Origin: an uncultured beta proteobacterium
GTDB taxonomy: Bacteria; Pseudomonadota; Gammaproteobacteria; Burkholderiales; Burkholderiaceae_C
Reading direction: 5' to 3'
Length of the DNA stretch: 64,000 nucleotides
NCBI GenBank assembly: GCA_903905735.1
Contig: CAIVHU010000133.1
Location: forward strand, 1 to 64,000
Shown here: positions 1,007-63,584 of the stretch, piece after piece
Numbering within the stretch: position 1 is the stretch's first letter
Layout of the letters: each line of letters begins with the position of its first letter
The notes under the pieces: model-generated
What the model saw: only the letters and a program-made list of their open reading frames with translations
The model's database searches: none
Told to the model about the DNA's origin: nothing
Translations under genes and position numbers: made by a program

Positions 1007-1055
1007 CAAATCAGCCTCTAGCCCAATAAGAACGTGCGCAGGAAGCTATCAAAAA
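1007..1055 (-). repeat. dispersed repeat A, copy 1 (intergenic)
   Basis: The reverse strand reads TTTTGATAGCTTCCTGCGC, then after a spacer TTGGGCTAGAGGCTGATTTG. It lies between the type ISP gene start and the PIN remnant. This is a typical full-length copy of the ~48-bp family described in the findings. Confidence 0.75.
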
Positions 1056-1071
1056 CATATCAAATACAAGC

Positions 1072-1229
1072 TCAATCGCCCCGCGTGATGACGCTCAGGG
1101 CTTCAAAATAATGGCTGAAAACCCGGCATCGCTGGTGATCAGTCCATCGGCCTGGCACATGGCATGGGCACCGATCAAAAAGTCGGGGGCCACGCGCTCG
1201 CACGGGCCTTTGTTCGGGGCGTAACCACA
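1072..1229 (-). pseudogene. truncated, frameshifted PIN-domain (VapC-like) remnant
   Basis: The minus strand encodes GPCERVAPDFLIGAHAM followed by CQADGLITSDAGF, which matches the C-terminal half of VapC-type PIN nucleases (DFLIGAHA, LLTxDxGF). The frame then breaks at a T run (1118-1121); the neighbouring frame continues SHYFEALSVITRGD and stops at 1072. One base added in the T run would restore a plausible GF-F-SHYF ending. The N-terminal half is missing because the preceding deaminase gene ends at 1230, and no antitoxin gene is visible. It is therefore a decayed fragment of a toxin-antitoxin nuclease. The motif match is seen in the sequence; the family name is from knowledge of PIN proteins. 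Confidence 0.7.
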
Positions 1230-2507: not shown

Positions 2508-2525
2508 GGGCTTGTTTGCTTCCAA

Positions 2526-2573
2526 TTAAATAGCTGTAAGCGCTTGATGAATAAGGGCTACAGGCCAATTTTT
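2526..2573 (+). repeat. dispersed repeat A, copy 2 (intergenic)
   Basis: Reads AAATAGCTGTAAGCGCTTG, then TAAGGGCTACAGGCCAATTT. It fills the gap between fthC (which ends at 2614) and the deaminase start, and its flank TTGGAAGC on the minus strand is the only ribosome-binding-like sequence for the deaminase. The same flank occurs next to the copy upstream of ruvC. Confidence 0.85.
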
Positions 2574-2613
2574 CCTGCAACTTTGGCCGCGCCAGGCCGG
2601 GGCCTGCTGGCGC

Positions 2614-5902: not shown

Positions 5903-7222
5903 ATGCCAAACCAATCGCTCGCCAATCTGCAGACTTATCTGGTCGGTGGAGCGGTGCGCGACGCGCTCTTGGGGCTACCTGTGCAGGATCGCGACTGGGT
6001 GGTGGTGGGTGCCACGCCGCAGGCACTGATCGACCAGGGATTTGTGCCGGTGGGCAAAGACTTTCCGGTGTTTTTGCACCCGACCACCCACGAGGAATAC
6101 GCCCTGGCCCGCACCGAGCGCAAAACCGCCCCCGGTTATCATGGCTTTGCCATCCACGCCGCGCCCAACGTGACGCTGCAAGACGATCTGGCCCGGCGCG
6201 ACATCACTATCAATGCCATAGCTGCCAGCGCAGACTGGCTAGGCGCTAAAGGCCAATTTGGCATCAAATACTCGCAACAAACTAACGCCACTCTGCCGGA
6301 TGCGCAGGCCTTGATCGACCCCTTTCACGGCCAACAAGACCTTGCCAACAAGGTGTTTCGGCATGTCAGCCCGACGTTCCGTGAGGACCCGGTGCGCATC
6401 CTGCGCGTGGCGCGTTTTGCTGCGCGCTTTGCCGACTTCACCGTCGCGCCCGAGACGCTGGTGCTGATGCGCGAGATGGTGGACAACGGCGAGGTCGATC
6501 ATCTGGTGCCGGAGCGCGTCTGGCAAGAACTGGCGCGCGGGTTGATGGAAGCCACCCCGTCGCGCATGTTCGCGGTGCTGCGCGATTGCGGCGCGTTGAA
6601 GCGCCTGTTGCCCGAAGTGGACCGCCTGTGGGGCGTGCCACAGCGCGCCGACTACCACCCAGAAGTGGACACTGGCGTGCACCTGATGATGGTGCTGGAC
6701 ATGGCCGCCCGCCTGCAAGCCTCGCTGGCCGTGCGCTTTGCCTGCCTGTGCCATGACCTGGGCAAGGGCACCACACCAGCCGATATTTTGCCGCGCCACC
6801 TGGGCCACGAGGAACGCAGTGCCAAACTGCTCAAGGCTGTCAGCGAGCGCCTGCGCGTGCCGGTGGAATGCCGCGAACTGGCCGACGTGATGGCGCGCGA
6901 ACACAGCAACATCCATCGCAGCACCGATTTCAGCGCCAGCGCCCTGACCCGCCTGCTGGAGCGCTGCGACGCGCTGCGCAAACCGCAACGCATGGCCGAC
7001 ATCCTGCTGGCCTGCGAGTGCGATGCACGCGGCAGGCTGGGTCACCTGGAATCACCCTACCCGCAGCGCCAGCGGCTACTGAAACTACTGGCCGTGATGC
7101 AGGCAGTTAATACCAAAACAATAGCTACCCAGGCAAAGGCTACGGGGGCTAATGGGCAAAATGTCGGCGAACAAATCCACCAGGCACGGGTGGCTGCAGT
7201 GCAGGCTGCGCTGGCTGCGTGA
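5903..7222 (+). CDS. cca: multifunctional CCA-adding enzyme (tRNA nucleotidyltransferase) with HD domain
   Basis: A 439-aa protein that adds or repairs the 3' CCA of tRNA. The nucleotidyltransferase domain has VGGAVRDALLG and QDRDWVVVG (metal-binding D-x-D region), followed by RRDITINAIA and the ERVWQEL neck segment. An HD phosphohydrolase domain (HPEVDTGVHLMM and CLCHDLGKG) follows, giving the multifunctional bacterial form with 2'3'-cyclic phosphodiesterase/phosphatase potential. About 25 residues (near 105-131) interrupt the usual INAMA...LIDPFGG segment and correspond to an in-frame copy of repeat A. Length and all catalytic motifs are otherwise normal, so the enzyme is probably active. 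No clear ribosome-binding site precedes the ATG. Confidence 0.95.
   Translation: MPNQSLANLQTYLVGGAVRDALLGLPVQDRDWVVVGATPQALIDQGFVPVGKDFPVFLHPTTHEEYALARTERKTAPGYHGFAIHAAPNVTLQDDLARRDITINAIAASADWLGAKGQFGIKYSQQTNATLPDAQALIDPFHGQQDLANKVFRHVSPTFREDPVRILRVARFAARFADFTVAPETLVLMREMVDNGEVDHLVPERVWQELARGLMEATPSRMFAVLRDCGALKRLLPEVDRLWGVPQRADYHPEVDTGVHLMMVLDMAARLQASLAVRFACLCHDLGKGTTPADILPRHLGHEERSAKLLKAVSERLRVPVECRELADVMAREHSNIHRSTDFSASALTRLLERCDALRKPQRMADILLACECDARGRLGHLESPYPQRQRLLKLLAVMQAVNTKTIATQAKATGANGQNVGEQIHQARVAAVQAALAA
6217..6260 (+). repeat. dispersed repeat A, copy 3 (in frame inside cca)
   Basis: Reads CATAGCTGCCAGCGC, then GGCGCTAAAGGCCAATTTGG. It is translated as part of CCA between INAIA and LIDPF, where homologues usually have only a short loop. 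Confidence 0.7.
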
Positions 7223-12255: not shown

Positions 12256-13326
12256 TCAGGCCAGCCGCAGTCCACTTGTGGCGTCAAACCAGTTGTTGTG
12301 GTTGCCACTGACCGTCATGCCCACGTTGTCGCCCACCTTCACTATCGTGCTGGGTGGTGTGCGCACGGTCACCAGGCCGGCACCGGTTTTGATCACCACG
12401 TAGGTGTCGGCTCCGGTCGGCTCGACCAGCGTGACCTCGCCACGCCAGGTGGCATCGTCAGCCAGGTGAATGTGCTCCGGGCGCTGCCCCAGCGTGACCT
12501 TGCCCGCCTTGGGAGCGGGGATCTGCAGGCTCCCGCCTTCAAAGGAAAAAAGGCTTGTAGCCCCCGTCCCGCTTGCGGTTCCAGTTATGAAATTCATAGT
12601 AGGTGAACCAATGAAACCGGCGACGTAGGTGTTGGCTGGCAGGCGGTAAATCTCGTCTGGCGTGCCGATCTGCTGCAGGATGCCGTCTTTCATCACGGCG
12701 ATGCGGCTGCCCAGCGTCATGGCCTCAATCTGGTCGTGCGTCACATACACCGTGGTGATGCCGGAGAGCAGGTGCAGGCGCTTGATCTCGGCGCGCATTT
12801 CCACCCGCAGTTTGGCGTCCAGGTTGGACAGCGGCTCGTCAAACAGGAACAGTTTCGGGTCACGCGCCAAGGCGCGCCCCATCGCCACACGCTGGCGCTG
12901 ACCGCCTGAGAGCTGCGCCGGGCGGCGGTCCAGCAGTTGCTCAATCTGCAGCATGGCAGCCACTTCGTGGATGCGCTTGGTGCGCACCTCCAGCGGCACC
13001 TTGCGCATTTCCAGCGCAAAGCCGATGTTGTCGGCCACGGTCATGGTCGGGTACAGCGCGTAGCTCTGGAACACCATGGCGATGTCACGCTGCGCTGGTG
13101 CCACGCCAATGACATTTTTGCCGTCAATCTTGAGTTCGCCTTCAGTGGGTTCTTCCAGACCGGCAATGATGTTGAGCAGCGTGGATTTACCGCAACCCGA
13201 GGGGCCGACCAGGATCAGGAATTCACCGGGCGGGACATCGATTTCAATTTTTTTGAGAACCTCGACGGCCTTGTCGCCCTTGCCGAAAACCTTGCGAATG
13301 CCTGCAATGTGGAGTGATGCTGCCAT
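12256..13326 (-). CDS. ugpC: CUT1 sugar ABC transporter ATP-binding protein (MalK/UgpC type)
   Basis: A 356-aa ATPase for the adjacent sugar permease. Walker A GPSGCGKST near residue 42, Q-loop in VFQSYALYP, signature LSGGQRQRVAMGRAL, Walker B LFLFDEP and the H-loop THDQ are all present. The C-terminal TOBE regulatory domain of the MalK/UgpC class follows (about 240-356). It is the last gene of the operon, 17 bp after the second permease. Residues around 245-261 (the start of the TOBE region) coincide with a degenerate repeat A copy. The name UgpC reflects family convention; the neighbouring binding protein points to glucose or a related sugar rather than glycerol-3-phosphate. Confidence 0.9.
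   Translation of the reverse strand: MAASLHIAGIRKVFGKGDKAVEVLKKIEIDVPPGEFLILVGPSGCGKSTLLNIIAGLEEPTEGELKIDGKNVIGVAPAQRDIAMVFQSYALYPTMTVADNIGFALEMRKVPLEVRTKRIHEVAAMLQIEQLLDRRPAQLSGGQRQRVAMGRALARDPKLFLFDEPLSNLDAKLRVEMRAEIKRLHLLSGITTVYVTHDQIEAMTLGSRIAVMKDGILQQIGTPDEIYRLPANTYVAGFIGSPTMNFITGTASGTGATSLFSFEGGSLQIPAPKAGKVTLGQRPEHIHLADDATWRGEVTLVEPTGADTYVVIKTGAGLVTVRTPPSTIVKVGDNVGMTVSGNHNNWFDATSGLRLA
12546..12594 (-). repeat. dispersed repeat A, copy 4 (degenerate, in frame inside the ABC ATPase gene)
   Basis: The reverse strand reads TTCATAACTGGAACCGCAAG, then GGGGGCTACAAGCCTTTTTT. The order of the conserved blocks is kept, but this is one of the weaker copies. Confidence 0.45.
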
Positions 13327-16849: not shown

Positions 16850-18295
16850 TCACAGGCTGGCGCGAACGTCCCTGAAAACCTGCCAAAACGCCGCATCCTG
16901 CGTGGTGCAGAAGTTGATGCGCATCAGCGTGCCGGGTGCGCGGCTGGCATGAAACAGCGAACCCGGGGCCAGCAAATAACCCGCATCGAGCATGCGCTGG
17001 GCCAGGGCATCGGTGTCCACACCAGTATCCACCCAGCCAAATAACCCCGATGGCGGCGCGGCAAAGCTGCAGCCCGCCGCCAGCGCCAGTGTCACGCTGC
17101 GGCCACGCGCCTGGTCCAGCCGGGAGCGCACCTGCTGCGCGTGGCGGCGCAACTGGCCTTGGTCGATGCACCAGGCCAGCGCTTTTTCCAGCAGCGCGGG
17201 TGTGGTCAGGGTGGCCAGCAGTTTGGTATCGAGCAAGCGCTCATACAAATACGTAGGTGCCGCCAAAAAGCCGATGCGCCAGCCAGGTGCCAGGATTTTG
17301 GAAAACCCGCTGACATAGATGGTGCGCTGCAAGCCGTCCAGCGCACTCAGGCGAGTGGCGTGTTCGGGCGCGAGGTGGCTGTAGGTGTCGTCCTCGACGA
17401 TGACAATGTTGTGGGTATTAGCCAGTTGTAACAGCCGGTGCGCGCTGCCGGGGCTCAAACAGTAGCCGGTGGGATTGTGCAGCACACTCACACTCACAAA
17501 CAGCTTGGGCTGGTGCAGCTCGCAGTAACGCGCCATCACCGCCAGGTCCGGCCCGTCCGGGCCGCGCGGCACGGGCAGGATGCGCATGCCCAAAGCGTCG
17601 AGCCGGGCAAATTCGATGGCCCAGCCGGGCTCCTCCACCATCACGCAGTCGCCCGCGCGCAGCAGCGTGCGACTGACGATGTCCAGCGCGTGGGTGGCAC
17701 CGACCGTGGTGATGATTTGCCGGGCCGTAGCCGGAATGGCCAGCGTGTTGAGTCGGGCGGAAAGTGCCTGGCGCAAGCCCGAGTCGCCAGCGGGTTCGCC
17801 ATATTGCAGCGAGAACGACTTGAGCTGCGGGCCGCTTGTGACGCGGCGGATGGCGGCGGCCAGATAGCTGTTCTCCAGCCAGTCGGGCGGGAAAGCGCCC
17901 AGGCCGGGCTGCGCCGTGGCGCTACCGCCATGGAACATGCCGCGAATCAGCGCCGTGGCGTTCACCGGCACATGCTGCGCCGCAAAGCCGGGACCCAGGA
18001 TGTTGTTCAAGGCCGAGTTCTCTACTTTTTCAGGAGCTGTCTGCCCTTGATCCATCAGGGCTGGCGACCGATTTCTTATATAAAAACCACGATGGCGATG
18101 GGCCTCCACCAAGCCTTGCGCCAGCAACTGGTCATACGCGGCAACCACGGTGCTGGGGCTCACGCCCTGTTGCTGGGCACATTGCCGCACCGACGGCAGA
18201 CGCGCACCCGGTGCCAGCAGCCCGGTGGCGATGCGTTCGGCAAAACGCGCCGCCAGTTGTGCAGACAAGGACTGGGTGGGTGTTTTAACTAACAT
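16850..18295 (-). CDS. MocR/PdxR-type GntR regulator with aminotransferase domain
   Basis: A 481-aa transcription regulator. The GntR winged helix (about 5-70) has LPSVRQCAQQQGVSPSTVVAAYDQL. The fold-type I aminotransferase domain (about 110-480) keeps the PLP lysine in YVSGFSKILAPGWRIGFL, plus HNPTGY and EDDTYSHL. The start ATG 18295 has AAAGG at proper spacing; the upstream TTG frame is less likely. It is divergent from a LysE exporter gene, and the 135 bp between starts carry repeated GTGTAyT motifs, so it probably controls that exporter in response to an amino acid or PLP compound. The linker at about 74-90 coincides with a copy of repeat A. Confidence 0.9.
   Translation of the reverse strand: MLVKTPTQSLSAQLAARFAERIATGLLAPGARLPSVRQCAQQQGVSPSTVVAAYDQLLAQGLVEAHRHRGFYIRNRSPALMDQGQTAPEKVENSALNNILGPGFAAQHVPVNATALIRGMFHGGSATAQPGLGAFPPDWLENSYLAAAIRRVTSGPQLKSFSLQYGEPAGDSGLRQALSARLNTLAIPATARQIITTVGATHALDIVSRTLLRAGDCVMVEEPGWAIEFARLDALGMRILPVPRGPDGPDLAVMARYCELHQPKLFVSVSVLHNPTGYCLSPGSAHRLLQLANTHNIVIVEDDTYSHLAPEHATRLSALDGLQRTIYVSGFSKILAPGWRIGFLAAPTYLYERLLDTKLLATLTTPALLEKALAWCIDQGQLRRHAQQVRSRLDQARGRSVTLALAAGCSFAAPPSGLFGWVDTGVDTDALAQRMLDAGYLLAPGSLFHASRAPGTLMRINFCTTQDAAFWQVFRDVRASL
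18026..18076 (+). repeat. dispersed repeat A, copy 5 (in frame in the MocR gene linker)
   Basis: Reads TTCAGGAGCTGTCTGCCC, then CATCAGGGCTGGCGACCGAT. It falls in the variable linker between the DNA-binding and aminotransferase domains, where an insertion would be tolerated. Confidence 0.65.
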
Positions 18296-18337
18296 GTGCG
18301 CCTTTCCATTGACCTTGTGCTGTGTGGTCATCACGAG

Positions 18338-19050: not shown

Positions 19051-19144
19051 GTGACAGACCAACATTTGCGGAGCAAATTTGCTCTGTTACCAACTGATGG
19101 CCAGAAGTCCGGCTGTCGGCCATGTGTGACAGAACAAAATTTGC
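19051..19144. repeat. three copies of a 19-bp GTGACAGA motif after the lysE-like gene
   Basis: GTGACAGACCAACATTTGC (19051-19069) and GTGACAGAACAAAATTTGC (19126-19144) match at 17 of 19 positions. An inverted relative, GTAACAGAGCAAATTTGC, lies at 19073-19090 on the other strand. The first two neighbours form a stem with a 3-base loop, and a further hairpin TGGCC...GGCCA lies at 19098-19122. The function may be transcript 3'-end formation or a small mobile repeat. Confidence 0.65.
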
Positions 19145-19150
19145 AAAGAT

Positions 19151-19193
19151 AATCGGCCTTCAGCCCTTATCCAGAAAGCGAAGGAAGCTATTT
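19151..19193 (-). repeat. dispersed repeat A, copy 6 (intergenic)
   Basis: The reverse strand reads AAATAGCTTCCTTCGCTTTC, then TAAGGGCTGAAGGCCGATTA. It is a strong copy lying just upstream of the racemase ribosome-binding site. Confidence 0.8.
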
Positions 19194-19208
19194 ATACAGG
19201 AGCAAATC

Positions 19209-22872: not shown

Positions 22873-23808
22873 ATGAAACGCCGCCCGTTCAGGCAAGTGG
22901 ATGTCTTCACCGACACCGCCTACCTCGGCAACCCGCTGGCGGTGGTGCTGGATGGCTCGGAGCTGGACGGCGACGACATGCAGCACTTTGCCCGCTGGAT
23001 CAATCTGTCTGAGACCACTTTCCTGCTGCCGCCCACCGAAGCGGGCCAGGCCCAGGGCGCGGACTACCGCGTGCGCATCTTCACGCCCGGTGGCGAGCTG
23101 CCGTTTGCCGGACACCCCACGCTGGGCAGTTGCCATGCCTGGCTGCAGGCGGGTGGCGCGCCCCAATCACCAACACAGATCGTGCAGGAATGCGACAAAG
23201 GCCTGATCACCATCCGCCAAAACGCGGGCCGACCGGCGTTCGCCGCACCCGCGTTGCAGCGCAGCCAGCCTGACCAGGCGCTGGTGGCCGACGTGGCGGC
23301 TGCATTGGGACTCGACACCCGGCACATCTTTGCCAGCCAGTTGATGGACAACGGTCCCGTCTGGCTCGGTCTGCTAATCGACAGCCAGGAGGTTTTGCTG
23401 GGGCTGGAACCCGACCACTTGCGTCTCAAAAACTTAGGCTTAAAAGTGGGTCTAGCCCATATAGAACAAGCGCAGGCAGATACAACTTTGGTAGCACGCT
23501 CCAACCGTGAAGCGCGTGCCTTCGGTCAGCGCGGCGGCATCGTCGCCAGCGACCAGAACGCACCCGGACTCACTGTGCGCGCCTTCGCCGCCGCTATCGG
23601 CGTGAATGAAGACCCGGTCACTGGCAGCCTGAACGCCAGTCTGGCGCAATGGCTGATCGCCGAGCGCCTGGCACCCCTAAGCTACCTTGCCACCCAAGGC
23701 ACCTGTCTGGGTCGGCACGGGCAAGTGCACATCACCCAAGACTACAGCGGCCAGGTCTGGGTGGGTGGCGACTCGGTCACCTGCGTGGACGGTGTGGTCA
23801 TGTTGTGA
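22873..23808 (+). CDS. PhzF-family isomerase/epimerase-like protein
   Basis: A 311-aa protein of the PhzF/DapF fold. RPFRQVDVFTDTAYLGNPLAVVLD at the N-terminus and RIFTPGGELPFAGHPTLGS are hallmarks; the catalytic Glu of PhzF corresponds to LSETTF near residue 46. The second half has EDPVTGSLNASLAQWL. The biochemical reaction of most family members is unknown. Start 22873 gives the usual N-terminus; a GTG at 22852 is also in frame. Residues about 190-206 coincide with an in-frame repeat A copy. Confidence 0.88.
   Translation: MKRRPFRQVDVFTDTAYLGNPLAVVLDGSELDGDDMQHFARWINLSETTFLLPPTEAGQAQGADYRVRIFTPGGELPFAGHPTLGSCHAWLQAGGAPQSPTQIVQECDKGLITIRQNAGRPAFAAPALQRSQPDQALVADVAAALGLDTRHIFASQLMDNGPVWLGLLIDSQEVLLGLEPDHLRLKNLGLKVGLAHIEQAQADTTLVARSNREARAFGQRGGIVASDQNAPGLTVRAFAAAIGVNEDPVTGSLNASLAQWLIAERLAPLSYLATQGTCLGRHGQVHITQDYSGQVWVGGDSVTCVDGVVML
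23442..23489 (-). repeat. dispersed repeat A, copy 7 (in frame inside the phzF-like gene)
   Basis: The reverse strand reads GTTGTATCTGCCTGCGCTTG, then ATATGGGCTAGACCCACTTT. The whole copy is translated in the protein between the two PhzF half-domains. Confidence 0.65.
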
Positions 23809-24551: not shown

Positions 24552-24572
24552 AAGGGCTGCGGGTGTTTTTGG
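24525..24572 (+). repeat. dispersed repeat A, copy 8 (end of the phosphatase gene)
   Basis: Reads TTTGATAGCTGGATCACC, then CTGAAAGGGCTGCGGGTGTT. The phosphatase stop codon TGA lies inside this copy, so the C-terminal sequence DSWITHA is repeat-derived. Confidence 0.6.
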
Positions 24573-36890: not shown

Positions 36891-36896
36891 AAGCGA

Positions 36897-42091: not shown

Positions 42092-43047
42092 GCGGCGGCG
42101 TAATCCAGGGTGGCCGATTGCAGGATCTGCAGGCACAACTCGGCATAAGAGATGCCTGCTGCCTTGGCGGACATGGGCACCAGCGAATGGCTGGTCATGC
42201 CCGGGCTGGTGTTGATCTCCAGCAGGTAGGGCTTGCGTGTGGTGGCATCAATCATCACGTCGGCGCGCGCCCAGCCACGGCATTGCAGGCTCTTGAAGGC
42301 GCGCAACACCAGTGCCTGGATGGCGGCTTCTTCGCCTTCTGGCAGGCCGCAGGGCACCAGATACTGGGTGGTGTCGGTGAAATATTTGTTCTGGTAGTCG
42401 TAATTGCCGTCGGGTGCGACGATGCGGATCACCGGCAGGGCCCGCGCCTGCGCGCCGCTGCCCAGCACCGGAATGGTGACTTCGTCGCCCGCCACAAACT
42501 GCTCGCACAGCACCTCATCATCCATCCCGGCGGCCAGCGCATAGGCGCCAGCGCATTGGTCAGCGGCGGTGACTTTCGTCAGGCCCAGGGTGGAACCTTC
42601 CCGGGCTGGCTTGACGATCATCGGCTGGCCGGGGGAGGCCAGTTCGGCGTAAGCGGCTTGGGTAGCCTCGGCGCTGGTGACCGTTCGCCAGGCTGGCGTG
42701 GGCAGACCATCGGCCAGCCACAGGCGCTTGGTCATGATCTTGTCGATGGCGATTGCAGACGCCATCACACCCGGGCCGGTGTAGGGAATGCCGAGCAATT
42801 CCAGCGCGCCCTGCACCGTGCCGTCTTCACCAAAGCGACCATGCAGCGCGATGAAGCAGCGGGTGAAACCCTCCACCTTCAACTCACCCAGATCGCGCTG
42901 CGCCGGGTCAAACGCGTGGGCGTTCACGCCCAGCGACTGCAAGGCCTGCAACACGCCGGTGCCCGACATCAGCGACACCTCGCGCTCGCCAGACTGGCCG
43001 CCCATGAGAACGGCCACCTTGTCATTTTGTAGGTCAAATCGGCTCAT
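42088..43047 (-). CDS. ddlB: D-alanine--D-alanine ligase
   Basis: A 319-aa ATP-grasp enzyme making D-Ala-D-Ala for peptidoglycan. [17 protein letters not shown], the ATP loop in [15 protein letters not shown], and [17 protein letters not shown] (metal site) are intact. The start ATG and the first residues MSRFDL lie inside a repeat A copy that also contains the murC stop. No conventional ribosome-binding site is visible in the repeat, so coupling to murC is likely. Confidence 0.97.
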
Positions 43048-43085
43048 AGCCTTTATAAATCCTTCCCAGGTAGCTCTTTTTTTGA
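43034..43085 (-). repeat. dispersed repeat A, copy 13 (murC/ddlB junction)
   Basis: The reverse strand reads AAAAAGAGCTACCTGGGAAG, then TATAAAGGCTATGAGCCGAT. The murC stop codon and the ddlB start codon both lie inside the copy. Confidence 0.7.
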
Positions 43086-44477
43086 GAGCAAATCAACCAC
43101 CTTGGCACTGACCGCGCCAATTGAGCCCGCACCCATGCACAACACCACGTCGCCGCCGCGGGCGTTGTCAGCGATGGCTTGTGGCAAGTCGGCCACCGCA
43201 TCGACAAACACCGGTTCGATCTTGCCGGCCACGCGCAGCGCGCGCGCCAGACTGCGGCCATCGGCGGCCACGATGGGCGCTTCACCTGCGGCATAGACCT
43301 CGGTCAGCAGCACCGCATCGGCCTGGGCGATGACCTTGACGAAATCGTCAAAGCAGTCCCGTGTGCGGGTAAAACGGTGCGGCTGAAACGCCAGCAGCAA
43401 GCGCCTGCCGGGGAAAGCGCCGCGTGCGGCGGCCAGGGTGGCAGCCATCTCGATCGGGTGGTGGCCGTAGTCGTCCACCAGCGTGAACGTGCCGCCATCA
43501 GCCGTCGGCAGTTCTCCGTAACGCTGAAATCGCCGCCCCACGCCCTTGAACCCGGCCAGCGCGCGCTGCACCGCCTCGTCAGAAATGCCCAGCTCGACCG
43601 CCACCGCGATGGCCGACAGTGCATTGAGCACGTTGTGCTTTCCCGGCAGGTTCAACACCACCTCCAGATCGGGCAGCACCAGGCCGTTGCGCCGCTGCAC
43701 GGTGAAAAACATCTGGCCATCGACGGCACGCACATCCACCGCGCGCACTTCAGCGCCTTCCTCCAGACCGTAACTGGTGATCGGGCAGGTGACTTGCGGG
43801 AGGATGGCGCGCACGGCGGCATCGTCGGTGCACAGGATGGCCGTGCCGTAAAACGGCATCTTGTGCAGAAAATCGACAAACGCCTTTTTGAGGCGCTCGA
43901 AGTCGTGGCCGTAGGTCTCCATGTGGTCGGCATCGATGTTGGTGACCACCGCCATCACCGGCAACAGGTTCAGGAACGACGCATCCGACTCGTCGGCCTC
44001 GACCACGATGTACTCACCTTGCCCCAGGCGGGCATTGGCACCGGCGCTGTTGAGCCGCCCGCCGATCACAAAGGTTGGGTCCAGCCCGCCTTCGGCCAGC
44101 ACGCTGGCGACCAGGCTGGTGGTGGTGGTTTTGCCGTGGGTGCCGGCGATGGCAATGCCGCGTTTCAGGCGCATCAGTTCGGCCAGCATCAGCGCCCGTG
44201 GTACCACCGGAATATGTTTGCTGCGCGCTGCCAGCACTTCCGGGTTGTCGGCATGAACGGCGGTGGAGGTCACCACCGCGTCTGCCGTGCTCACGTTGCT
44301 CGCCGCGTGGCCGATGAACGTCAGAATGCCCAAGCTGCTCAGGCGCTGCAAAGTGGCGCTGTCAGACTGGTCCGAACCCGAGATGGTGTAACCCAGGTTG
44401 AACAAAATCTCGGCAATGCCGGACATGCCGACACCGCCAATGCCGACAAAGTGGATGTGTTGGATCGCGTGTTTCAT
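43053..44477 (-). CDS. murC: UDP-N-acetylmuramate--L-alanine ligase
   Basis: A 474-aa Mur ligase adding L-Ala to UDP-MurNAc. The N-terminal Rossmann part has [17 protein letters not shown], the ATP loop is [16 protein letters not shown], and the conserved His/Asn region is [14 protein letters not shown]. The C-terminal domain has [17 protein letters not shown] 44477 is preferred over a frame that would overlap murG. The last residues (KKELPGKDL) are encoded by repeat A. Confidence 0.96.
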
Positions 44478-44493: not shown

Positions 44494-45570
44494 TCATGTC
44501 GTCGCCTCCTCACAGGCGGCGACCATCTGTTCGGTTGCCTCCAGTTTTTGCATCTTTTTGGCCTCCAGCCCTTTATTCATAAGCGCAGTACGCTCCATTT
44601 TTAGCAGCAAATCTGCCAGACGACGGGCGCTCAGATCACGCTGCTGCACCAGCCAACCTCCACCGTGTTCCACCAGAAAACGCGCGTTGTGCGTCTGGTG
44701 GTCGTCCACCGCCGAGGGAAATGGCACAAACAGCGCCGCCGCCCCCACGGCGGCAATTTCGGTCACGGTGCTGGCACCGGCGCGGCAGATCACCAGGTCG
44801 GCGTCGGCAAAGGCCTGAGCGGTGTTGTCGATGAACGGGGTCAGCTCAGCCGCCACACCCGCCTGGGCGTAGTTGGCACGCAAGGCATCGATTTGCTTGG
44901 CACCGCTTTGATGCAGCACGGTGGGTCGCTGCGTCTCAGGCAGCAGCCCCAGCGCCTGCGGCACGATCTCATTGAGAGCTCTGGCGCCCAGGCTGCCGCC
45001 GAGCACCAACAGCTTGAGCGGGCCGCTGCGTCCAGCAAAACGCTGATCAGGGGTCGGCAGGTTCAAAAACGCCGCGCGCAGCGGGTTGCCGACCCACCGG
45101 GCACCCTTGAGGACATTCGGGAAAGCCGTGAACACCCGCACCGCCACCCCCGCCAGCACCTTGTTGGCCAGACCTGCCACCGAATTTTGTTCGTGCAGGA
45201 TGAGTGGCTTGCCCAGCAACACGGCCATCATGCCCGCCGGGAAGGTGATATAGCCACCCAAGCCCACCACCACATCGGGTTTGACGCGGCGCAGCACAAT
45301 GATGCTTTGCCAGAAAGCGGTGAGCAGGCGCAGCGGCAGCAGCGCCATCGTGACCGGACCCTTGCCTCGCAAACCGCCAAAGTCAATCGACTCGAAGGCA
45401 AAACCTTGCGGTGGCACCAGCTGGCTTTCCATGCTGGGCTGGGTCGCGCTGCCACGGCCACCGAGCCAATGCACGCTCCAGCCCTTGTCACGCAGCGCGT
45501 GCGCCACCGCCAGACCCGGGAAGATGTGGCCCCCTGTGCCGCCAGCCATGATCAGGGCGCATTTGCTCAT
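44494..45570 (-). CDS. murG: UDP-N-acetylglucosamine transferase MurG
   Basis: A 358-aa membrane-associated GT-B enzyme that adds GlcNAc to lipid I to form lipid II. The N-terminal glycine loop [17 protein letters not shown] and the donor-site motif [26 protein letters not shown] are intact. The start at 45570 follows GGAGG; this start region is one arm of a 22-bp duplication shared with the end of ftsW. Residues about 323-340 near the C-terminus overlap a strong repeat A copy. Confidence 0.96.
44553..44602 (-). repeat. dispersed repeat A, copy 14 (in frame near the murG end)
   Basis: The reverse strand reads AAAAATGGAGCGTACTGCGC, then AATAAAGGGCTGGAGGCCAA. It encodes part of the non-conserved C-terminal tail of MurG. 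Confidence 0.7.
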
Positions 45571-46918: not shown

Positions 46919-48438
46919 GCGCTGCCCTCCAGCATCACACCGGCCTCCAGGGCCAGGTCGGTCACGGCTTGCACAAACACGCGGGCTCGGTGCTCGTAGT
47001 TGTCAAACATGTCAAAACTGGCGCACGCCGGAGACATCAGCACTGCGTCACCCGCCTTGGCCTGGCCGCTGGCTTGCACCACGGCGTCCTGCATGGCGGT
47101 GGCCATCAGCAACGGCACACCGGTGTCTGCCAACGCGGCACCGATCAGCGCTGCGTCGCGGCCGATCAGCACCACGGCGCGAACATGGCGGCGCACCGGC
47201 TCAGCCAAGGGCGAAAAGTCCTGCCCCTTGCCCTCGCCCCCCAAAATCACCACCACCTTGCGGTCCGCACCCAGGCCCATCAGCGCGGCCACCGTGGCAC
47301 CCACATTGGTGCCTTTGCTGTCGTCAAAATACTCCACGGCGTTCACCGTACCGACCGGCTGCACGCGGTGTGGCTCGCCGGTGTATTCGCGCAAGCCGTA
47401 GAGCATGGGGGCCAGGGCGCAACCAGCGCTGCTGGCCAAAGCCAGGGCTGACAGGGCGTTGATGGCGTTGTGCCGGCCACGAATGCGCAGCGCGTCAGCG
47501 GGCATCAGGCGCTGGACATACAGGTCTTCGGCAGCCTCGTTGCGCTTGCGTTTGGTTTCGTCCGCGTCCAGGGCCCGCACCAGCCAGGCTATGCCGTTGA
47601 CCGTCTCGATGCCAAAGTCACCCGGGCGCTTAGGCATATCGCCGCCAAACAGGATGCAGGCGCGTTGCTGGGGTTTTTGGCCTTTGGCCCGGGCAGGCGG
47701 CGGGAGCATGCGCATGACCTCTTCGTCATCACGATTCAGCACCATCAGGCCGGTCTGGCCAAAGATATGGCGCTTGGCCTGCACATAGGCGGCCATCGAG
47801 CCATGCCAGTCCAAATGGTCCTGGGTGATGTTGAGGACAGCTGCCGCGGTCGGCTCAAAGCTGGTTTCGCCGTCCAGCTGAAAGCTGGAGAGCTCCAGCA
47901 CCCACACTTCAGGCAGGCTGTCGGCATCCAGATGCTTTGCCAGCGTGTCGAGCAGCGTCGGGCCGATGTTGCCCGCCACCGCCACGCTTTTGCCTGCGCG
48001 CTCCACCAGTTGACCGGTGAGCGAAGTGACGGTGGTTTTGCCGTTGGTCCCGGTGATAGCCAGTACAGCCGGGGCGTAACCGCGCTCCTCCTTCAGCTGC
48101 GCCAGCGCCTGTGCATACAAGCCCAATTCGCCTGCAGCCCAGATACCCATTGCGCTGGCAGCTTCAAAAACAGGAGCAACTTCCAGCGGACTCAAGCCTG
48201 GGCTCTTGAACACCGCGCGCACATCGGTGCCCTGAACCAGCGCTGCATCGAAGGCACCGCCGATAAAACGGGCACCGGGCACCTCGGCTTGCAAGCGGGC
48301 CAGTTGCGGCGGCGCGCTGCGCGTGTCCGCCACCGTGACCTGCGCACCGCCGCGCGCGCACCAACGCGCCATCGCCAGGCCGGACGCACCCAGGCCGAGG
48401 ATCAGAACGTGTTGGTCTTGGAGGGTTTGCATGGTCAT
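46915..48438 (-). CDS. murD: UDP-N-acetylmuramoylalanine--D-glutamate ligase
   Basis: A 507-aa Mur ligase adding D-Glu. The N-terminal domain starts with [17 protein letters not shown], the ATP loop is [17 protein letters not shown], and the carbamylated-Lys/metal region has LSSFQLDG and HLDWHGSM. The C-terminal domain has [17 protein letters not shown] and [13 protein letters not shown]. It is longer than the E. coli enzyme (438 aa) because of inserts near residues 240-320. Start ATG 48438 overlaps the mraY stop; ATG 48432 is the alternative. Confidence 0.96.
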
Positions 48439-49613: not shown

Positions 49614-51031
49614 GTGGCCCCCTGGCGCTCTTGCGTGGCGGCGACGATGGCTTCCACCACGCGCTCCATCTTCATGAAACGTGAGCCCTTGACCAGCACG
49701 CTGGCCAACTGTGGCAGCTCAGCCAGCACGGCCGTTTGTAAATCAGCCATCTCGGCAAACACCTTCACAGAATCAATTTTCATAGCTGCTTGCGCAGACG
49801 CTACGCCGGTTACAAGCACTTTTTCTATATTTTTTTCAACAGCATGCGCGAGCGCTTCGGCATGGAACTGCGGGCCCTGGTCGCCCACTTCACCCATGTC
49901 GCCCAGCACCAGCAAACGCGGGCCAGGCAGCGCAGCCAGCACGTCGATGGCGGCGCGCACCGAATCCGGGTTGGCGTTGTAGGTGTCATCGACCACGGTG
50001 ATCGTGCGACCCGCCAGCACCGCCTCGAACGCGCGGCTGCGGCCTTTGACCGGCTCGAACGCGCTCAGTCCCGCGCCGATCGCCGCCAATGGCACCCCAG
50101 CCGCCAGCGCACACGCCACAGCGGCCAGCGAGTTCTTGACGTTGTGGGCACCAGCAATGTGCAGGCTGTAACGCAGTTCGCCCCCCGGGGTGCTGGCCGT
50201 GACCTGCCAGGCCGCGTTGGCCCAGCTGGCCTGCAGGGCGAACACGTCGGTCCCCGCGTGCGGTTCAGCCGCAAAACGCAGCACCCGGCGGGTGTCTGCC
50301 AGTGCAGTCCAGACGCTGCTGAAAGCCTCATCTGCCGGGAACACGGCCACCCCATCCTTTGGCAAAGCGCTGATCACCGCGCCGTTTTCCTGCGCCACGG
50401 CCTGCACGGTCTGCATGAATTCCAGATGCTCGCGCTGCGCGTTGTTGACCAATGCCACGGTCGGCTGGGCGATGGCTGCCAGCGTGGCGATTTCGCCCGG
50501 GTGATTCATGCCGAGTTCCACCACGGCGATGTGATGGTCGGGCGTGAGCCGCAACACGGTCAGCGGCACGCCAATATCGTTGTTCAGATTGCCTTGCGTG
50601 GCCAGCGCGGCATTGCCTGCATGGGCGCGCAGGATCGACGCGATCATCTGTGTGACGGTTGTCTTGCCGTTGCTGCCAGTCACGGCGATCAGTGGCAAGG
50701 CGAACTGTGCGCGGTGATGCGTGGCCAGTTGCGCCAGCGCCAGGCGGGCGTCCGCCACCACCAGGCCCGGCAAACCGGCTTGTACCAGCTGGGCGGCCGC
50801 GTTGTCACCCTGGCAAATGGCCGCTACCGCGCCTTTGGCTTTGGCCTCGGCCAGAAATGCGTTGGCATCAAAACGCTCGCCACGCAGCGCCACAAACAGA
50901 TCTCCAGCTTGCAGCGTGCGGGTGTCGGTATGCACGCGGGCGATAGCCAATGGCGGCATCGCCTGAAAACCGACCTGCTGCTTCTGATCCAGCCAGGCGG
51001 CGGCTTGCTGCAAGGTCATCAACGCACTCAT
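49607..51031 (-). CDS. murF: UDP-N-acetylmuramoyl-tripeptide--D-alanyl-D-alanine ligase
   Basis: A 474-aa Mur ligase adding D-Ala-D-Ala. The ATP loop is [17 protein letters not shown], and [42 protein letters not shown] and [17 protein letters not shown] match the family. The start overlaps the murE stop (ATGA). Residues about 403-418 ([20 protein letters not shown]) overlap repeat A in the C-terminal domain; length stays near normal. Confidence 0.96.
49778..49825 (+). repeat. dispersed repeat A, copy 15 (in frame inside murF)
   Basis: Reads TTTCATAGCTGCTTGCGCAG, then GTTACAAGCACTTTTTC. The left half is a perfect consensus match; the right half is degenerate. Confidence 0.6.
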
Positions 51032-52569
51032 GCGTTCACCTCATGGCCGTCTGCCGGTCGGCGTTGCGCCAGCGCTTGCCGAACCTGGGCCATATCCGAG
51101 AAAGGCAGCCGCTGGCCAGCGATCTCCTGGTAGTCTTCGTGACCCTTGCCGGCCACCAGCACCACGTCGTTGGCAGCGGCTTGTTGCAACGCCTGCGCGA
51201 TGGCCCGGGCGCGGTCCGGCTCGACCATCACCGCTGGCACACCGGCCAGACCCAGCAAAATCTGGCTGATGATGGCATCGGGCACTTCGCTGCGCGGGTT
51301 GTCGCTGGTGACCATGACCTGATCAGCGTGCCCTGCGGCTACCGCGCCCATCAGCGGGCGCTTGCTGGTGTCGCGGTCGCCACCACAGCCAAACACGCAC
51401 CAGAGCTTGCCGCCGCGCTGCGCCGCCACTGGCTTGAGGGCGTCCAGCGCCTTGGCCAGCGCATCGGGCGTGTGTGCATAGTCCACCGCCACCAGCGGGT
51501 GGCCCGTCTGGCTGACACATTCCATGCGCCCGGGCACGGGGGTGAGCGCCGAGCAGGCCTGCACCGCAGCGTCCAAGGGCACACCCAGCGTACGCATGGC
51601 GGCGACCACGCCCAACAGATTGGCCACGTTGTACTCACCGATCAGACCTGTGGCCAGTGGCAGGCGTTGCGTGCCTTCGACAATGTCAAAACGCATCCCG
51701 CCCACGCTGTAGTCAATGGCCTGCGCCTGCAATCGCGCGCCGTTGCCGGAACCGGCCAGCATGGACACGGTCCAGAGATCAAGCGCTGCGGCGTCGGTCA
51801 TGGCCGCTTGATCTTTCAGCAGTCTGTGGGCCAGGTCAGCGCCATACCCATCATCCACATTGATCACGGCAGCGCGCAGCCCCGGCCAGGCAAACAGCTT
51901 GGTTTTGGCTTGCCAGTAGGCCTCCATGGTGCCGTGGTAATCCAGGTGGTCCTGCGTCAGGTTGGTGAGGATCGCGGTGTGGATGTGTGTGCCGTCCAGC
52001 CGGTGCTCTTCGATGCCGATGGACGAGGCCTCAATGGCACAGGCTTGCATGCCCGTGGCGGAAAAGTTCGCAAATGCCGCCTGCAGCGCCACCGGGTCGG
52101 GCGTGGTCAGGCCGGTGCTGATCACATTGGGCGGAACGCCAATGCCCAAAGTGCCCACTACCCCGCATGGAATAAGAGCAACCTGCTGTAAATTTGAGAG
52201 CGTTTGCGCCAGCCACCAGGCAGTGGAGGTTTTGCCGTTGGTACCGGTGACTGCCAGCACCCGCAGGGCCTGGCTCGGGTCCCCAAAATAATGGCTGGCC
52301 AGCACGCCGCTGGCGGCCTTCAGCCCGCTGTAGGTAGCGACCCGCGGGTCGTCAAAAGCAAACTGATCGACACCGACCTGCTCGACCAGGCAAGCAACGG
52401 CCCCGGCAGCCAGCGCGCCCGCCACATGCTCACGCGCATCCACAGCCGCGCCGGGCCAGGCCAGAAAGCCGTCGCCAGGGCGCAGCTTGCGGCTGTCAGT
52501 GCAAAGCGTGCCGGTCACTTGCGACTGCAGCCAGAGCGCTGCCTCCAGGGGAGTGTGGAGTTGCTGCAT
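51028..52569 (-). CDS. murE: UDP-N-acetylmuramoyl-L-alanyl-D-glutamate--2,6-diaminopimelate ligase
   Basis: A 513-aa Mur ligase adding the third amino acid. The ATP loop is LAVTGTNGKTSTAWWLA; YHGTMEAYWQAKTKLF and GEYNVANLLGVVAAMRTLG follow; the DNPRSE motif in VTSDNPRSEVP marks the meso-diaminopimelate-specific form. The start shares one base with the ftsI stop (TGATG). Residues about 125-141 (SNLQQVALIPCGVVGTLG) overlap a degenerate repeat A copy. Confidence 0.97.
   Translation of the reverse strand: MQQLHTPLEAALWLQSQVTGTLCTDSRKLRPGDGFLAWPGAAVDAREHVAGALAAGAVACLVEQVGVDQFAFDDPRVATYSGLKAASGVLASHYFGDPSQALRVLAVTGTNGKTSTAWWLAQTLSNLQQVALIPCGVVGTLGIGVPPNVISTGLTTPDPVALQAAFANFSATGMQACAIEASSIGIEEHRLDGTHIHTAILTNLTQDHLDYHGTMEAYWQAKTKLFAWPGLRAAVINVDDGYGADLAHRLLKDQAAMTDAAALDLWTVSMLAGSGNGARLQAQAIDYSVGGMRFDIVEGTQRLPLATGLIGEYNVANLLGVVAAMRTLGVPLDAAVQACSALTPVPGRMECVSQTGHPLVAVDYAHTPDALAKALDALKPVAAQRGGKLWCVFGCGGDRDTSKRPLMGAVAAGHADQVMVTSDNPRSEVPDAIISQILLGLAGVPAVMVEPDRARAIAQALQQAAANDVVLVAGKGHEDYQEIAGQRLPFSDMAQVRQALAQRRPADGHEVNA
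52147..52195 (-). repeat. dispersed repeat A, copy 16 (in frame inside murE)
   Basis: The reverse strand reads AAATTTACAGCAGGTTGCTC, then ATGCGGGGTAGTGGGCACTT. Degenerate but with the conserved blocks in the right order. Confidence 0.45.
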
Positions 52570-61302: not shown

Positions 61303-62352
61303 TCAGACAAGGCTCTGCTCCATCCCTTGCAAAAAAATGTCCTGGGGCAGATCGATACCGATAAACACCATTTTGCTACAACGCTTTTCGTCCGGACCCC
61401 AGGCGGGGCCCAGGTCGCTGCCCATCAGCTGGTGCACCCCTTGGAAAATCACCTTGCGGTCGGTGCCTTTCATATAGAGAACACCTTTGTAGCGCAACAT
61501 ACGCGGGCCGTAGATGTTGACCACCGCCCCCAAAAAGTCTTCCAGTTTGGCCGGATCAAACGCGCGGTCTGAGCGGAACACAAAACTTTTCACGTCATCG
61601 TCATGCGCGTGGTGGTGGCCATGTTGGTGCGACAGGTGGTTGCAGGATTCGCCCGGTGCATGGTCGTGACCCGCATGGTCATGGTCGTGGTCGTCTTCCT
61701 TGAGGAAATCCGGGTCGATGTCGAGCTTGGTATTGAGGTTGAAACCGCGCAGGTCAAACACCTCTGACAGCGCCACCTCGCCAAAATGCACGGCTTTTTG
61801 CGGCGCACGCGGGTTCATGTGCTTGAGACGGTGCTGCAGGTCGGCCACCTCTTCGGCGCTGACCAGGTCGGTCTTGCTGATGAATATCTGGTCGGCAAAA
61901 CCCACCTGACGGCGCGCTTCCTGGCGGTCATCGAGCTGCTGGTTGGCGTGTTTGGCATCCACCAGCGTCAGGATCGAGTCCAGCAAATAGCTCTCGGCAA
62001 TCTCGTCGTCCATGAAAAAGGTCTGTGCCACCGGGCCCGGGTCGGCAACGCCGGTGGTCTCAATCACCACACGGTCAAAGTCCAGCAGGCCCTGGCGCTT
62101 TTTGGCGGCCAGAAGCTGCAGGGCTTCACGCAGGTCTTCGCGGATGGTGCAGCAGATGCAGCCGTTGCTCATCTGGATGATCTGCTCTTGGGAGTCGGTC
62201 ACCAGAATGTCGTTGTCGATGTTTTCCTCACCAAACTCGTTTTCGATGATGGCGATTTTCTGGCCATGCGCCTCCGACAACACGCGTTTGAGGAGCGTGG
62301 TTTTGCCGGATCCGAGAAAACCGGTGAGGATGGTGGCAGGAATCAGACTCAT
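61303..62352 (-). CDS. CobW/COG0523-family GTPase, probable zinc metallochaperone
   Basis: A 349-aa GTPase. The P loop is LTGFLGSGKTTLLKRVL, the metal-binding CxCC motif is SNGCICCTIREDL, and the base-recognition motif ISKTDL is present. A His/Asp-rich loop (about 215-250, DDHDHDHAGHDHA then HQHGHHHAHDDD) is typical of metal-handling members. COG0523 proteins often accompany zinc-independent paralogues, and here the next gene is the zinc-cysteine-poor dksA. Metal specificity is not shown by sequence. Confidence 0.93.
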   Translation of the reverse strand: MSLIPATILTGFLGSGKTTLLKRVLSEAHGQKIAIIENEFGEENIDNDILVTDSQEQIIQMSNGCICCTIREDLREALQLLAAKKRQGLLDFDRVVIETTGVADPGPVAQTFFMDDEIAESYLLDSILTLVDAKHANQQLDDRQEARRQVGFADQIFISKTDLVSAEEVADLQHRLKHMNPRAPQKAVHFGEVALSEVFDLRGFNLNTKLDIDPDFLKEDDHDHDHAGHDHAPGESCNHLSHQHGHHHAHDDDVKSFVFRSDRAFDPAKLEDFLGAVVNIYGPRMLRYKGVLYMKGTDRKVIFQGVHQLMGSDLGPAWGPDEKRCSKMVFIGIDLPQDIFLQGMEQSLV

Positions 62353-62396
62353 GATGGGTACAGGTTGAAAGGCAGCCAGTGTAACGATGATCTGTT

Positions 62397-63584
62397 CTAC
62401 ACCTGCTTACGCATCACCACCAGCCCCTTGAGGTACTCGCCCTCGGGAAAATGGATGGTCATGGGATGGTCCGGCGCGCCGCCCATACGCTCATGGATAT
62501 AGCCGTCGACCCCGGCATCGCAACCCGCCGATGCCACGATCTTGTGAAACAGGTCGGCGCTGATGCCACCCGAACAGCTGTAGGTGAACAACACGCCGCC
62601 CGGCTCCAGCAGTTTGAAGGCCAGCCGGTTGATGTCTTTATAGGCGCGTGCGGCGCGTTCGGCGTGCGCCACGGTCGGCGCAAACTTGGGCGGGTCAAGC
62701 ACGATGGCATCAAAGGTGCGGCCCTGCTCGATGAACTCGCGCAGCGAGGCGTTGACATCGGCGTCCATGAAAGTCACCCGATCTGGCGCAAAACCATTCA
62801 GCGCCACATTGGCGGCGGCTTTTTCCAGCGCCGGACCCGATGAGTCAATCGACGTGACGTGTACCGCGCCGCCTTTCAACGCCGCCACGGTGAAGCCGCC
62901 GGTGTAGCAATAACAGTTGAGCACGCGCTCAAACTTGAGCCGTTTCGCGTAGTCAAAAAAGCGTTTGCGGCTGTCGCGCTGGTCCAGGTAGAAACCGGTT
63001 TTGTGGCCTTCGGCGATGTTCACGGCCAGTTGCCAGTCATGCTCCTGCAGCAGCATTTCAACCTCGCCCGAGTCGCGCAGCCAGCCGGTGGCCTCGGGCA
63101 ATCCTTCCAGCGCCCGGCTACTGGCATCAGAGCGTTCGTACAGTTTGGTCAAGCCGGTGGCGGCCAACAAGGCATCGGCAATCACGTCTTTCCAGCGCTC
63201 CACGCCCGCGCTGGTGAATTGCGCCACCAACGTGTCGCCGTAGCGGTCCACGATCAGGCCCGGCAGCCCGTCGGACTCGCCGTGCACCAGGCGCACACCA
63301 TTGCTTTTTATGTCAAATCGGTCTCTAGCCCTTACTGCACCTGCGCAAGCAGCTATAAAAAAAGATGCATCTATGCGCTGGGCTTCATCGAAACTCCAGA
63401 CCCGCGCGCGGATTTTGGAGCTCGGGCTGAACGCCGCCCAGGCCAGAAACTGGCCGTCAGCCGACTCCACGCGCACGGTTTCACCGACGTCACCGCTGCC
63501 TTTGGCAATGGCAGATTCAAAAATCCAGGGGTGTCGGCGAAGCAGGGAGCGCTCTTTGCCAGGTCGCAGGCGGATGGCTTTCAT
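62397..63584 (-). CDS. rlmI: 23S rRNA (cytosine1962-C5)-methyltransferase RlmI-like
   Basis: A 395-aa SAM-dependent methyltransferase with an N-terminal PUA domain (RLRPGKERSLLRRHPWIFESAI). The Rossmann core has VLNCYCYTGGFTVAAL and the catalytic PPKF motif in AIVLDPPKFAPT, plus YSCSGGISADLF with the second Cys. Residues about 75-91 (ASFFIAACAGAVRARDRFD) are encoded by one of the best repeat A copies between the PUA and methyltransferase domains. It follows the small upstream gene immediately. Confidence 0.93.
   Translation of the reverse strand: MKAIRLRPGKERSLLRRHPWIFESAIAKGSGDVGETVRVESADGQFLAWAAFSPSSKIRARVWSFDEAQRIDASFFIAACAGAVRARDRFDIKSNGVRLVHGESDGLPGLIVDRYGDTLVAQFTSAGVERWKDVIADALLAATGLTKLYERSDASSRALEGLPEATGWLRDSGEVEMLLQEHDWQLAVNIAEGHKTGFYLDQRDSRKRFFDYAKRLKFERVLNCYCYTGGFTVAALKGGAVHVTSIDSSGPALEKAAANVALNGFAPDRVTFMDADVNASLREFIEQGRTFDAIVLDPPKFAPTVAHAERAARAYKDINRLAFKLLEPGGVLFTYSCSGGISADLFHKIVASAGCDAGVDGYIHERMGGAPDHPMTIHFPEGEYLKGLVVMRKQV
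63312..63362 (-). repeat. dispersed repeat A, copy 17 (in frame inside rlmI)
   Basis: The reverse strand reads TTTTTATAGCTGCTTGCGC, then GTAAGGGCTAGAGACCGATT. It is among the closest matches to the consensus and is fully translated. Confidence 0.85.

Follow-up and report, generated by a model that had tools for sequence, protein, structure and literature searches.

A dense family of ~66-bp, two-fold symmetric motifs in genomes of the Comamonadaceae that very probably represents a DNA recognition site evolving in place

A 64,000-nt stretch of DNA from an uncultured beta proteobacterium (contig CAIVHU010000133.1 of assembly GCA_903905735.1; hereafter, the window) contains many copies of a degenerate repeat, located both between genes and, in frame, inside conserved genes, among them several genes of the dcw cluster. 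This raises the question of whether such copies were inserted, as under one of the two explanations given in a preliminary description (passive movement of an element under selection for insertions that can be translated), or whether they arose where they stand. Here, we report that, at the five places tested, the motif evolves in place, and we argue that each copy very probably serves as a recognition site in DNA, ~66 bp in length.

The motif family is real, and its unit spans about 66 bp

With 91 copies from outside the window as the training set, a weight matrix recovered 19 copies within it, with scores between 23.3 and 62.1 bits. In 100 first-order Markov windows, the top score was 11.5 bits and the mean maximum was 1.8, with a single site above 10 and none above 15, and the reversed window, scored with the same outside-trained matrix, yielded 0 sites above 10 bits. 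A shuffled-type search, suggested in the preliminary description as a way to refute a dense, degenerate repeat family, therefore produced no equally good matches, and the density reported there (one copy per 3.5 kb) agrees with 19 copies per 64 kb. In the window's own genome (G000; 5.26 Mb), the pattern GGGCTAGAGGCCNATTT, with at most 2 mismatches, matched 240 times, versus 0 times for the same pattern read backwards, and an iterated weight matrix found 110 places above the Markov maximum in a 464-kb sample (the window plus 20 additional stretches), or about one per 4.2 kb. Over-representation was strong on both strands, a feature shared with DNA uptake sequences (DUS) and uptake signal sequences (USS). 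The density of copies rises with the GC content of 20-kb stretches (Spearman correlation, 0.72; 23 stretches) even though the motif is AT-rich, the opposite of what a composition artefact would produce. The motif family, in short, is real.

The information profile around the GGGCTAG block extends from -39 to +27, with sharp edges and flat flanks, so that the unit of ~48 bp originally described represents only the core of a unit of about 66 bp. The approximate consensus sequence is CTAY.AAATTT..ATAGCTGC..GCGCTT.TT..ATAAGGGCTAGAGGCC.ATTT..C.TATAA, with ATTT and AAAA as alternative right ends, and its core is two-fold symmetric (palindromic).

Orthologous places with and without the motif are equally long

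Five copies in the window belong to the dcw cluster: one across the end of murC and the start of ddl (43027..43088, minus strand; 43.2 bits), one in the 3' part of murG (44546..44607, minus; 39.5 bits; gene at 44494-45660, minus), one in murD (48115..48176, minus; 40.5 bits; gene at 46915-48810, minus), one in murF (49771..49832, plus; 31.3 bits; gene at 49607-51031, minus), and one in murE (52139..52200, minus; 25.6 bits; gene at 51028-52569, minus). The murF copy is antisense to its gene, and those in murG, murD, and murE are in sense orientation. We collected 80 named orthologous dcw cluster loci from one MraY protein scan, including oddly labelled ones (one metagenome-assembled genome was labelled Akkermansia), and applied a scoring matrix built without the window's dcw copies to every alignable gene. 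Motif scores at the orthologous places spanned -85 to +47. The alignment at the motif place was ungapped in 77 of 78 murD, 66 of 66 murG, and 71 of 80 murF orthologues. For murE, 37 of 69 orthologues were ungapped; most of the others missed 2 to 5 residues, six had 2 to 12 extra residues, and one lacked 21 residues, approximately what a 62-bp insertion would need. Insertion between genes was checked at one junction only, that of murC and ddl, which measures 104 bases in the window, in several carriers of the motif (e.g., loci L026, L070, L025, and L028), and also in the non-carriers L023 and L027. Among 21 motif-bearing loci, its median length was 104 bases, compared with 102.5 bases among 36 loci lacking the motif, the spread being wider in the latter (68 to 228).

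The murG motif segment could be aligned to Escherichia coli MurG (1f0k) without a gap, while the Pseudomonas protein (3s2u) has 2 additional residues there; judged by these alignments, the segment is ancestral. In murF, the protein sequence was altered in the clade that gained the site, its length still being equal. Thus, at the five places tested, the coding sequence was altered rather than interrupted, and the motif evolves in place. The in-frame position of copies inside genes, as first described, holds true, the reading frame being kept because the length did not change; the insertion that was read into it does not. Since nothing was inserted at these places, there are no borders and no target duplication to be read from an alignment of orthologues, and the equal lengths of motif-bearing and motif-free orthologues contradict the passive movement of an element whose insertions are selected to be translatable.

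Synonymous codon choice builds the motif in carriers

Codon choice was evaluated by keeping the amino acids fixed and redrawing the codons according to local usage, with the carrier state judged from other sites and gapped orthologues left out. In carriers, the mean z score was 4.9 for murD (16 of 19 above 2), 3.3 for murG (15 of 21), and 2.7 for murE (13 of 19), versus 0.2 (5 of 41), 0.2 (6 of 39), and 0.8 (2 of 14), respectively, in non-carriers. At the murF site, found in the Rhodoferax clade only, z exceeded 2 in 5 of 25 carriers. In the window's own genome, all 58 in-gene copies scored above 2 with each copy left out, a result that is weaker on its own as these copies had been selected by score. 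Synonymous codon choice, then, builds the motif in carriers and not in non-carriers. By a cruder measure, in which distant genomes were compared for use of the same codon wherever the amino acid agreed, the murF site topped all 408 windows, and the murG site was exceeded by 10 of 330.

These data also bear on a process of in-place block conversion, in which a mobile or templated (retron- or recombineering-like) mechanism would overwrite a sequence of equal length with the 66-bp unit. Such a mechanism might explain the murF site, which scores 17 to 39 bits in one clade against -20 to -78 outside it, with no clear intermediates elsewhere. However, real codons serve the protein and the motif together, the occupied orthologous places are common to several genera, and there is little linkage between the columns of 83 aligned copies (see below). 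We know of no template or enzyme for such a conversion and consider it very unlikely.

Carriers and non-carriers are interleaved within the family

The same orthologous places were occupied in loci of Rhodoferax, Acidovorax, Simplicispira, and Ramlibacter, in line with the earlier suggestion that related repeats occur across the Comamonadaceae, and were empty in other loci, including those of Limnohabitans. Two Acidovorax loci scored at the mur gene sites, L050 reaching 22 to 42 bits at three of the four and L077 reaching 14 and 20 at two. In a tree of Mur proteins, empty clades adjoin full ones (e.g., L021, L022, L023, and L027 beside L024 and L025). Counts from a sequence-only model over 160 genomes of the window's family, the Comamonadaceae content of which was deduced from named loci, were bimodal: 44 genomes (hereafter, carriers) had at least 10 matches (at least 33 in 40 of these), 23 had 1 to 6, and 93 had none. 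The contrast extends to members of a single genus (g128), with at least 35 matches in genome G128 versus 0 in G219. Among 150 genomes drawn from the order, two belonging to other families had one marginal match each (E value up to 0.001). Such a distribution suggests a trans-acting factor that has been lost from some lineages.

Copies were also encountered on plasmids. A Rhodoferax antarcticus plasmid record (L137; NZ_CP019241.1) held 11 copies in 31.9 kb, denser than the chromosome sample, and a plasmid stretch of Comamonadaceae OS-4 held 2 copies in 50 kb. Additionally, an enterobacterial plasmid (L139; NC_004464.2) has a class 1 integron in which the DUF1010 gene, flanked by dfrA12 and aadA2, carries a full, 58-bit copy (L139:2491-2552, reverse complement). 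A blastn search with the consensus matched 1749 plasmid records, and DUF1010 lay under the match in 23 of the 30 listed, which suggests a possible Comamonadaceae ancestry for the DUF1010 cassette.

Half-sites tend to change together, and hairpin covariation was not seen

Within the 83 copies, the mean mutual information between columns was 0.073, versus an expected 0.066 (standard deviation, 0.0007), with most of it between neighbouring columns; a few distant column pairs reached z scores of 5 to 7, and no clear subfamilies were seen among the copies. The consensus was genome specific, forming dialects between related genomes, within small samples (6 to 24 copies for six genomes, 60 for G099, and 97 for G000; G003, with two copies, was left out). 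The two half-sites tended to shift together between genomes, GCGCT being paired with AGCGC in G121, G072, G015, and G128 and GCCCA with TGGGC in G099. Exceptions were G120 (6 copies), which deviated at one pair, and the window's genome and G004, both of which were mixed at another. Such a pattern would be expected from a symmetric protein whose specificity changes.

As the core can fold, an RNA-level element (a terminator or a site for an RNase or small RNA) acting in transcripts was considered as well. Hairpin covariation was not found, with core paired fractions approximating the independent-column expectation in each of eight sampled genomes, and in-gene copies are common in both orientations (24 sense and 34 antisense of 58). 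We discarded the hairpin on the lack of covariation and regard an RNA-level element as extremely improbable.

A mobile palindromic element, either of the repetitive extragenic palindrome (REP) or miniature inverted-repeat type or resembling the Rickettsia palindromic elements, inserted in frame, would account for the palindromic core and for the occurrence of copies in both orientations, in genes and in gaps. It would also fit the folding energies, which for 52 of 60 sense sequences and 39 of 60 antisense ones were lower than the mean of shuffled versions, and the higher frequency of Y1_Tnp genes in carriers (40 of 44, versus 80 of 116 other genomes; P = 0.004, with kinship ignored). The REP-associated tyrosine transposase (RAYT) gene that the preliminary description suggested searching for is nevertheless a poor candidate for a driver: the association of Y1 transposases with the motif is weak and not strict, carriers G095 and G141 having no Y1_Tnp match. 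With unchanged lengths at five orthologous places, a murG segment that is ancestral, codon choice, places shared between genomes, and no clear subfamilies all arguing against it, we rejected a mobile element and leave it hardly any probability.

Because length did not change at five places, codon choice builds the motif, places are shared across genera, counts are bimodal, losses are clade-wide, the consensus is genome specific and its half-sites match, and hairpin covariation is lacking, we consider it highly probable that the copies are not a mobile element but DNA recognition sites of ~66 bp that originate, persist, and erode by base substitution where they stand, in genes and between them, because a trans-acting factor of the cell reads them. 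The factor that would read the motif is one that we infer from these patterns. The alternative offered in the preliminary description, a regulatory or nucleoid site, was right in kind, in that the motif behaves as a DNA recognition site.

Placement within genomes

According to gene calls for the window's own genome, which are crude (91% coding), the 97 copies above 25 bits in the own-genome sample comprise 47 wholly inside genes, 30 over a gene end, and 20 between genes, and the 58 in-gene copies occur in all six relative frames. Even spacing of the copies was not found (coefficient of variation, ~1). The same sample contained six copy-free gaps of more than 14 kb, in each of two of which we looked up ten proteins. 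The first of these represents an island, its proteins including an integrase, a subunit of a type III restriction system, and a DNA methylase. The second (L017/L018; G000:C72:31160-60000) is a photosynthesis cluster (reaction centre, PUCC, NifH/frxC family, and CobN/Mg chelatase) with no copy above 25 bits.

In two closed genomes, a strict pattern revealed no gradient from origin to terminus and no polarity: for G099, 46 of 89 matches lay in the origin half and 40 of 89 had one polarity, and for G121, these numbers were 18 and 22 of 41. A seemingly copy-poor region of G099, near 2.1 to 2.8 Mb, proved to be an artefact of the strict pattern, as ten 20-kb stretches there held 34 copies and nine elsewhere held 26. 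Matrix hits in seven genomes other than G099 were evenly oriented, 39 pointing away from the origin and 42 toward it. In G121, copies were also seen side by side, ~90 to 110 bases apart (C1:610180-610285 and C1:1071103-1071319).

A possible uptake sequence or site of chromosome architecture

Transformation looks selective in two genera of this family. In Verminephrobacter eiseniae, a 100:1 excess of foreign DNA lowered transformation only about tenfold, with no additional drop at ratios up to 1500:1, and transformation depended on type IV pili, most of it being lost in pilus mutants; Acidovorax temperans was transformed only by DNA of its own species (PMC4212676). The authors suggested sequence-specific uptake, and the relevant passages of that paper name no uptake sequence for Verminephrobacter or Acidovorax. 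Because uptake-sequence systems behave alike and because of this apparently selective transformation (PMC4212676), a role in DNA uptake is our first choice for the function of the motif. We speculate that a receptor belonging to the type IV pilus or competence machinery would bind the motif in free DNA, so that motif-bearing DNA would be taken up preferentially. Uptake followed by recombination would then spread variants nearer to the preferred sequence (biased conversion, or "molecular drive"), and this drive would hold very many sites near the consensus, even in murD, murF, and murG. In a lineage whose receptor was lost or changed, all sites would erode jointly or move toward a different consensus. 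A receptor, preferential uptake, and drive are all inferred here, and the complete scheme, a motif working like a DNA uptake sequence with receptor and drive, is put forward as a possibility that falls somewhat short of probable. We are a shade more reserved about its general form, namely, that the Comamonadaceae possess an uptake code of their own, 66 bp long, two-fold symmetric, dialect forming, read by a receptor, and written into core genes by molecular drive.

Several findings weigh against this interpretation. No receptor was found when ComEC and GspH/FimT-type pilins were compared over the 44 carriers and 116 non-carriers: ComEC was present in 43 and 111 of these, respectively, and GspH/FimT-type pilins in 43 and 110, so that neither separates the two groups. 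One carrier, G088, keeps its sites even though its comEC is split by ~49 kb. Occupancy in the dcw cluster is not all-or-none either: any of the four mur gene sites exceeded 20 bits in 26 of 80 loci, and among those 26, scores above 15 bits were seen for murD in 23 of 26, murG in 19 of 24, murE in 9 of 24, and murF in 5 of 26; in the same-codon analysis, 24 of 81 loci were classed as intermediate. Same-codon conservation was weak at murD (151 of 504 windows higher) and murE (90 of 450). In 19 sampled stretches of G099 (L102 to L120), 16 matrix hits pointed away from the origin and 44 toward it (P = 0.0004). For V. eiseniae, where one conjugative plasmid only was checked, no copy above 10 bits was found on it, and the species barrier of A. 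temperans could result from sequence divergence alone. Moreover, the two-fold symmetry of the core would suit a dimeric DNA-binding protein no less well than a pilin. Known uptake sequences have cores of 9 to 12 bp; those of USS and DUS are non-palindromic and belong to other families, whereas the motif reported here measures ~66 bp, has a symmetric core, and occurs once per ~4 kb.

ComEC and GspH/FimT were rejected as the missing factor, being near-universal in carriers and other genomes alike. The comEC halves of G088 (C23:141148-142821 and 191863-192684) are separated near residue 259, and further interrupted comEC genes were seen in G042 (at a contig end) and in G000 (over two contigs); an element targeting comEC may exist. 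In G121, which belongs to the same genus as the window's genome, comEC itself bears two copies of the motif (L101:2501 and L101:3583; 39 and 50 bits).

The main rival to an uptake role is a nucleoid-type protein. In such a scenario, a lineage-specific dimeric or wrapping protein would bind the 66-bp sites and organise or bridge the chromosome, selection would keep each site, and loss of the protein would lead to decay. The symmetric core with half-sites changing together between genomes, the near independence of positions inside a genome, the bimodal distribution over genomes, the 11 copies on the 32-kb R. antarcticus plasmid record, and the strand bias in G099 (42 matrix hits on the minus and 18 on the plus strand in L102 to L120) all fit such a protein. 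On the other hand, spacing is not even, there is no gradient from origin to terminus, and the seven other genomes show no strand polarity. Furthermore, such numbers of long, specific sites inside essential genes are not known to us for any nucleoid protein, and, all in all, we think a site of chromosome architecture rather unlikely, if well worth keeping in mind.

Copies in the window

The 14 copies outside the dcw cluster were scored with the same outside-trained matrix. Gene names in the preliminary description agree with our searches, based on Pfam for the cca, MocR-type, phzF, alaX-type, RNB RNase, and aroE genes and on NCBIfam for murC, murD, murE, murF, murG, ddl, mraY, and the RlmI-like methyltransferase gene (for which the RlmI model itself stayed below its cut-off). 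The best copy (2519..2580, plus strand; 62.1 bits) lies in the gap between two minus-strand open reading frames (ORFs) and overlaps 7 bases of the ORF at 1230-2525, and another is located between machine-called ORFs (999..1060, minus; 54.2 bits). A third, first described as intergenic (19141..19202, minus; 51.0 bits), falls close to the start of an Asp/Glu racemase-type gene (19122-19931, plus), either at its 5' end or immediately ahead of it; its status depends on an uncertain start codon, as the copy precedes the Pfam domain and lies at residue 6 of the ORF called by machine. One copy spans the junction of machine-called ORFs at 35856-36854 (plus) and 36879-37358 (minus) (36832..36893, minus; 51.5 bits), and the weakest one crosses the 3' end of a machine-called ORF at 23883-24551 (plus) (24518..24579, plus; 23.3 bits).

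Five of the remaining copies are in sense orientation. Two are found in a cca-type gene (5903-7222, plus), at 6207..6268 (plus; 48.6 bits) and 7110..7171 (plus; 32.5 bits), and one each is found in an ABC transporter ATPase gene identified by Pfam (12538..12599, minus; 37.2 bits; gene at 12256-13326, minus), in aroE (34053..34114, plus; 51.4 bits; gene at 33309-34379, plus; also supported by PDB relatives), and in the RlmI-like methyltransferase gene (63306..63367, minus; 57.9 bits; gene at 62397-63584, minus; matched by Pfam as well). Antisense copies are present in the MocR-type gene (18022..18083, plus; 56.6 bits; gene at 16850-18355, minus), the phzF-type gene (23433..23494, minus; 41.9 bits; gene at 22852-23808, plus), the alaX-type gene (28885..28946, minus; 45.8 bits; gene at 28611-29441, plus), and the RNB-domain RNase gene (31693..31754, minus; 52.8 bits; gene at 30510-32645, plus). 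Separately, the ORF at 9565-12237 contains two direct copies of a 174-nt segment (9927-10100 and 10728-10901), 71% alike and 801 bases apart.

Comparison with known systems

Among the papers listed in searches of the open-access literature, which does not cover most subscription journals, none described the motif or an uptake sequence for the Comamonadaceae. Even if the motif is not an uptake signal, about one specific site per 4 kb, shaping the codons of essential genes and lost from entire clades, implies a hitherto unknown DNA-binding factor with genome-wide effect. For annotation, it cautions against assuming that similar repeats inside genes were inserted.

Several known systems resemble the motif in part. 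KOPS, Chi, and MatP sites are likewise recognition sites embedded in genes; those sites, however, are not only short but also polar or limited to one domain, while the motif shows neither a gradient nor a consistent polarity. Rickettsia palindromic elements are palindromic and lie in frame inside protein genes, as the motif does, but lengthen the protein by insertion, whereas no length change accompanied the motif at the tested places. REP sequences and the mosaic elements built from them (BIMEs), with their RAYT transposase, share with the motif a short palindromic form and hundreds of copies. REPs are described as extragenic and tagged at one end (PMC3733652), in contrast to the motif, which lies in genes, is shaped by codon choice, and does not strictly require a Y1 transposase; six Burkholderiales genus stems gave no match in the text of that paper. 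The beta-proteobacterial repeat element BRE has also been reported in the Comamonadaceae, sometimes located in coding sequence (Hot et al. 2011; PMC3110155). It is ~90 bp long, has a GC content of 69% in Bordetella, is often arranged in tandem, and has 4 copies in R. ferrireducens, and this published description sets it apart from the motif in size, GC content, and copy number.

To our knowledge, interspersed uptake sequences are generally credited to only two bacterial families. Like the motif, the USS of the Pasteurellaceae and the DUS of the Neisseriaceae are interspersed on both strands, in and between genes, evolve in place, form dialects, and have been lost from lineages. If the motif were indeed an uptake sequence, the Comamonadaceae would be a third such family, a well-sampled one whose long symmetric motif has formed dialects and has repeatedly been lost in nature, and in which one could test how DNA self-recognition arises, changes, and is lost. 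Uptake sequences are also found in core rather than foreign genes, according to passages of PMC4212676, a preference that the motif shares.

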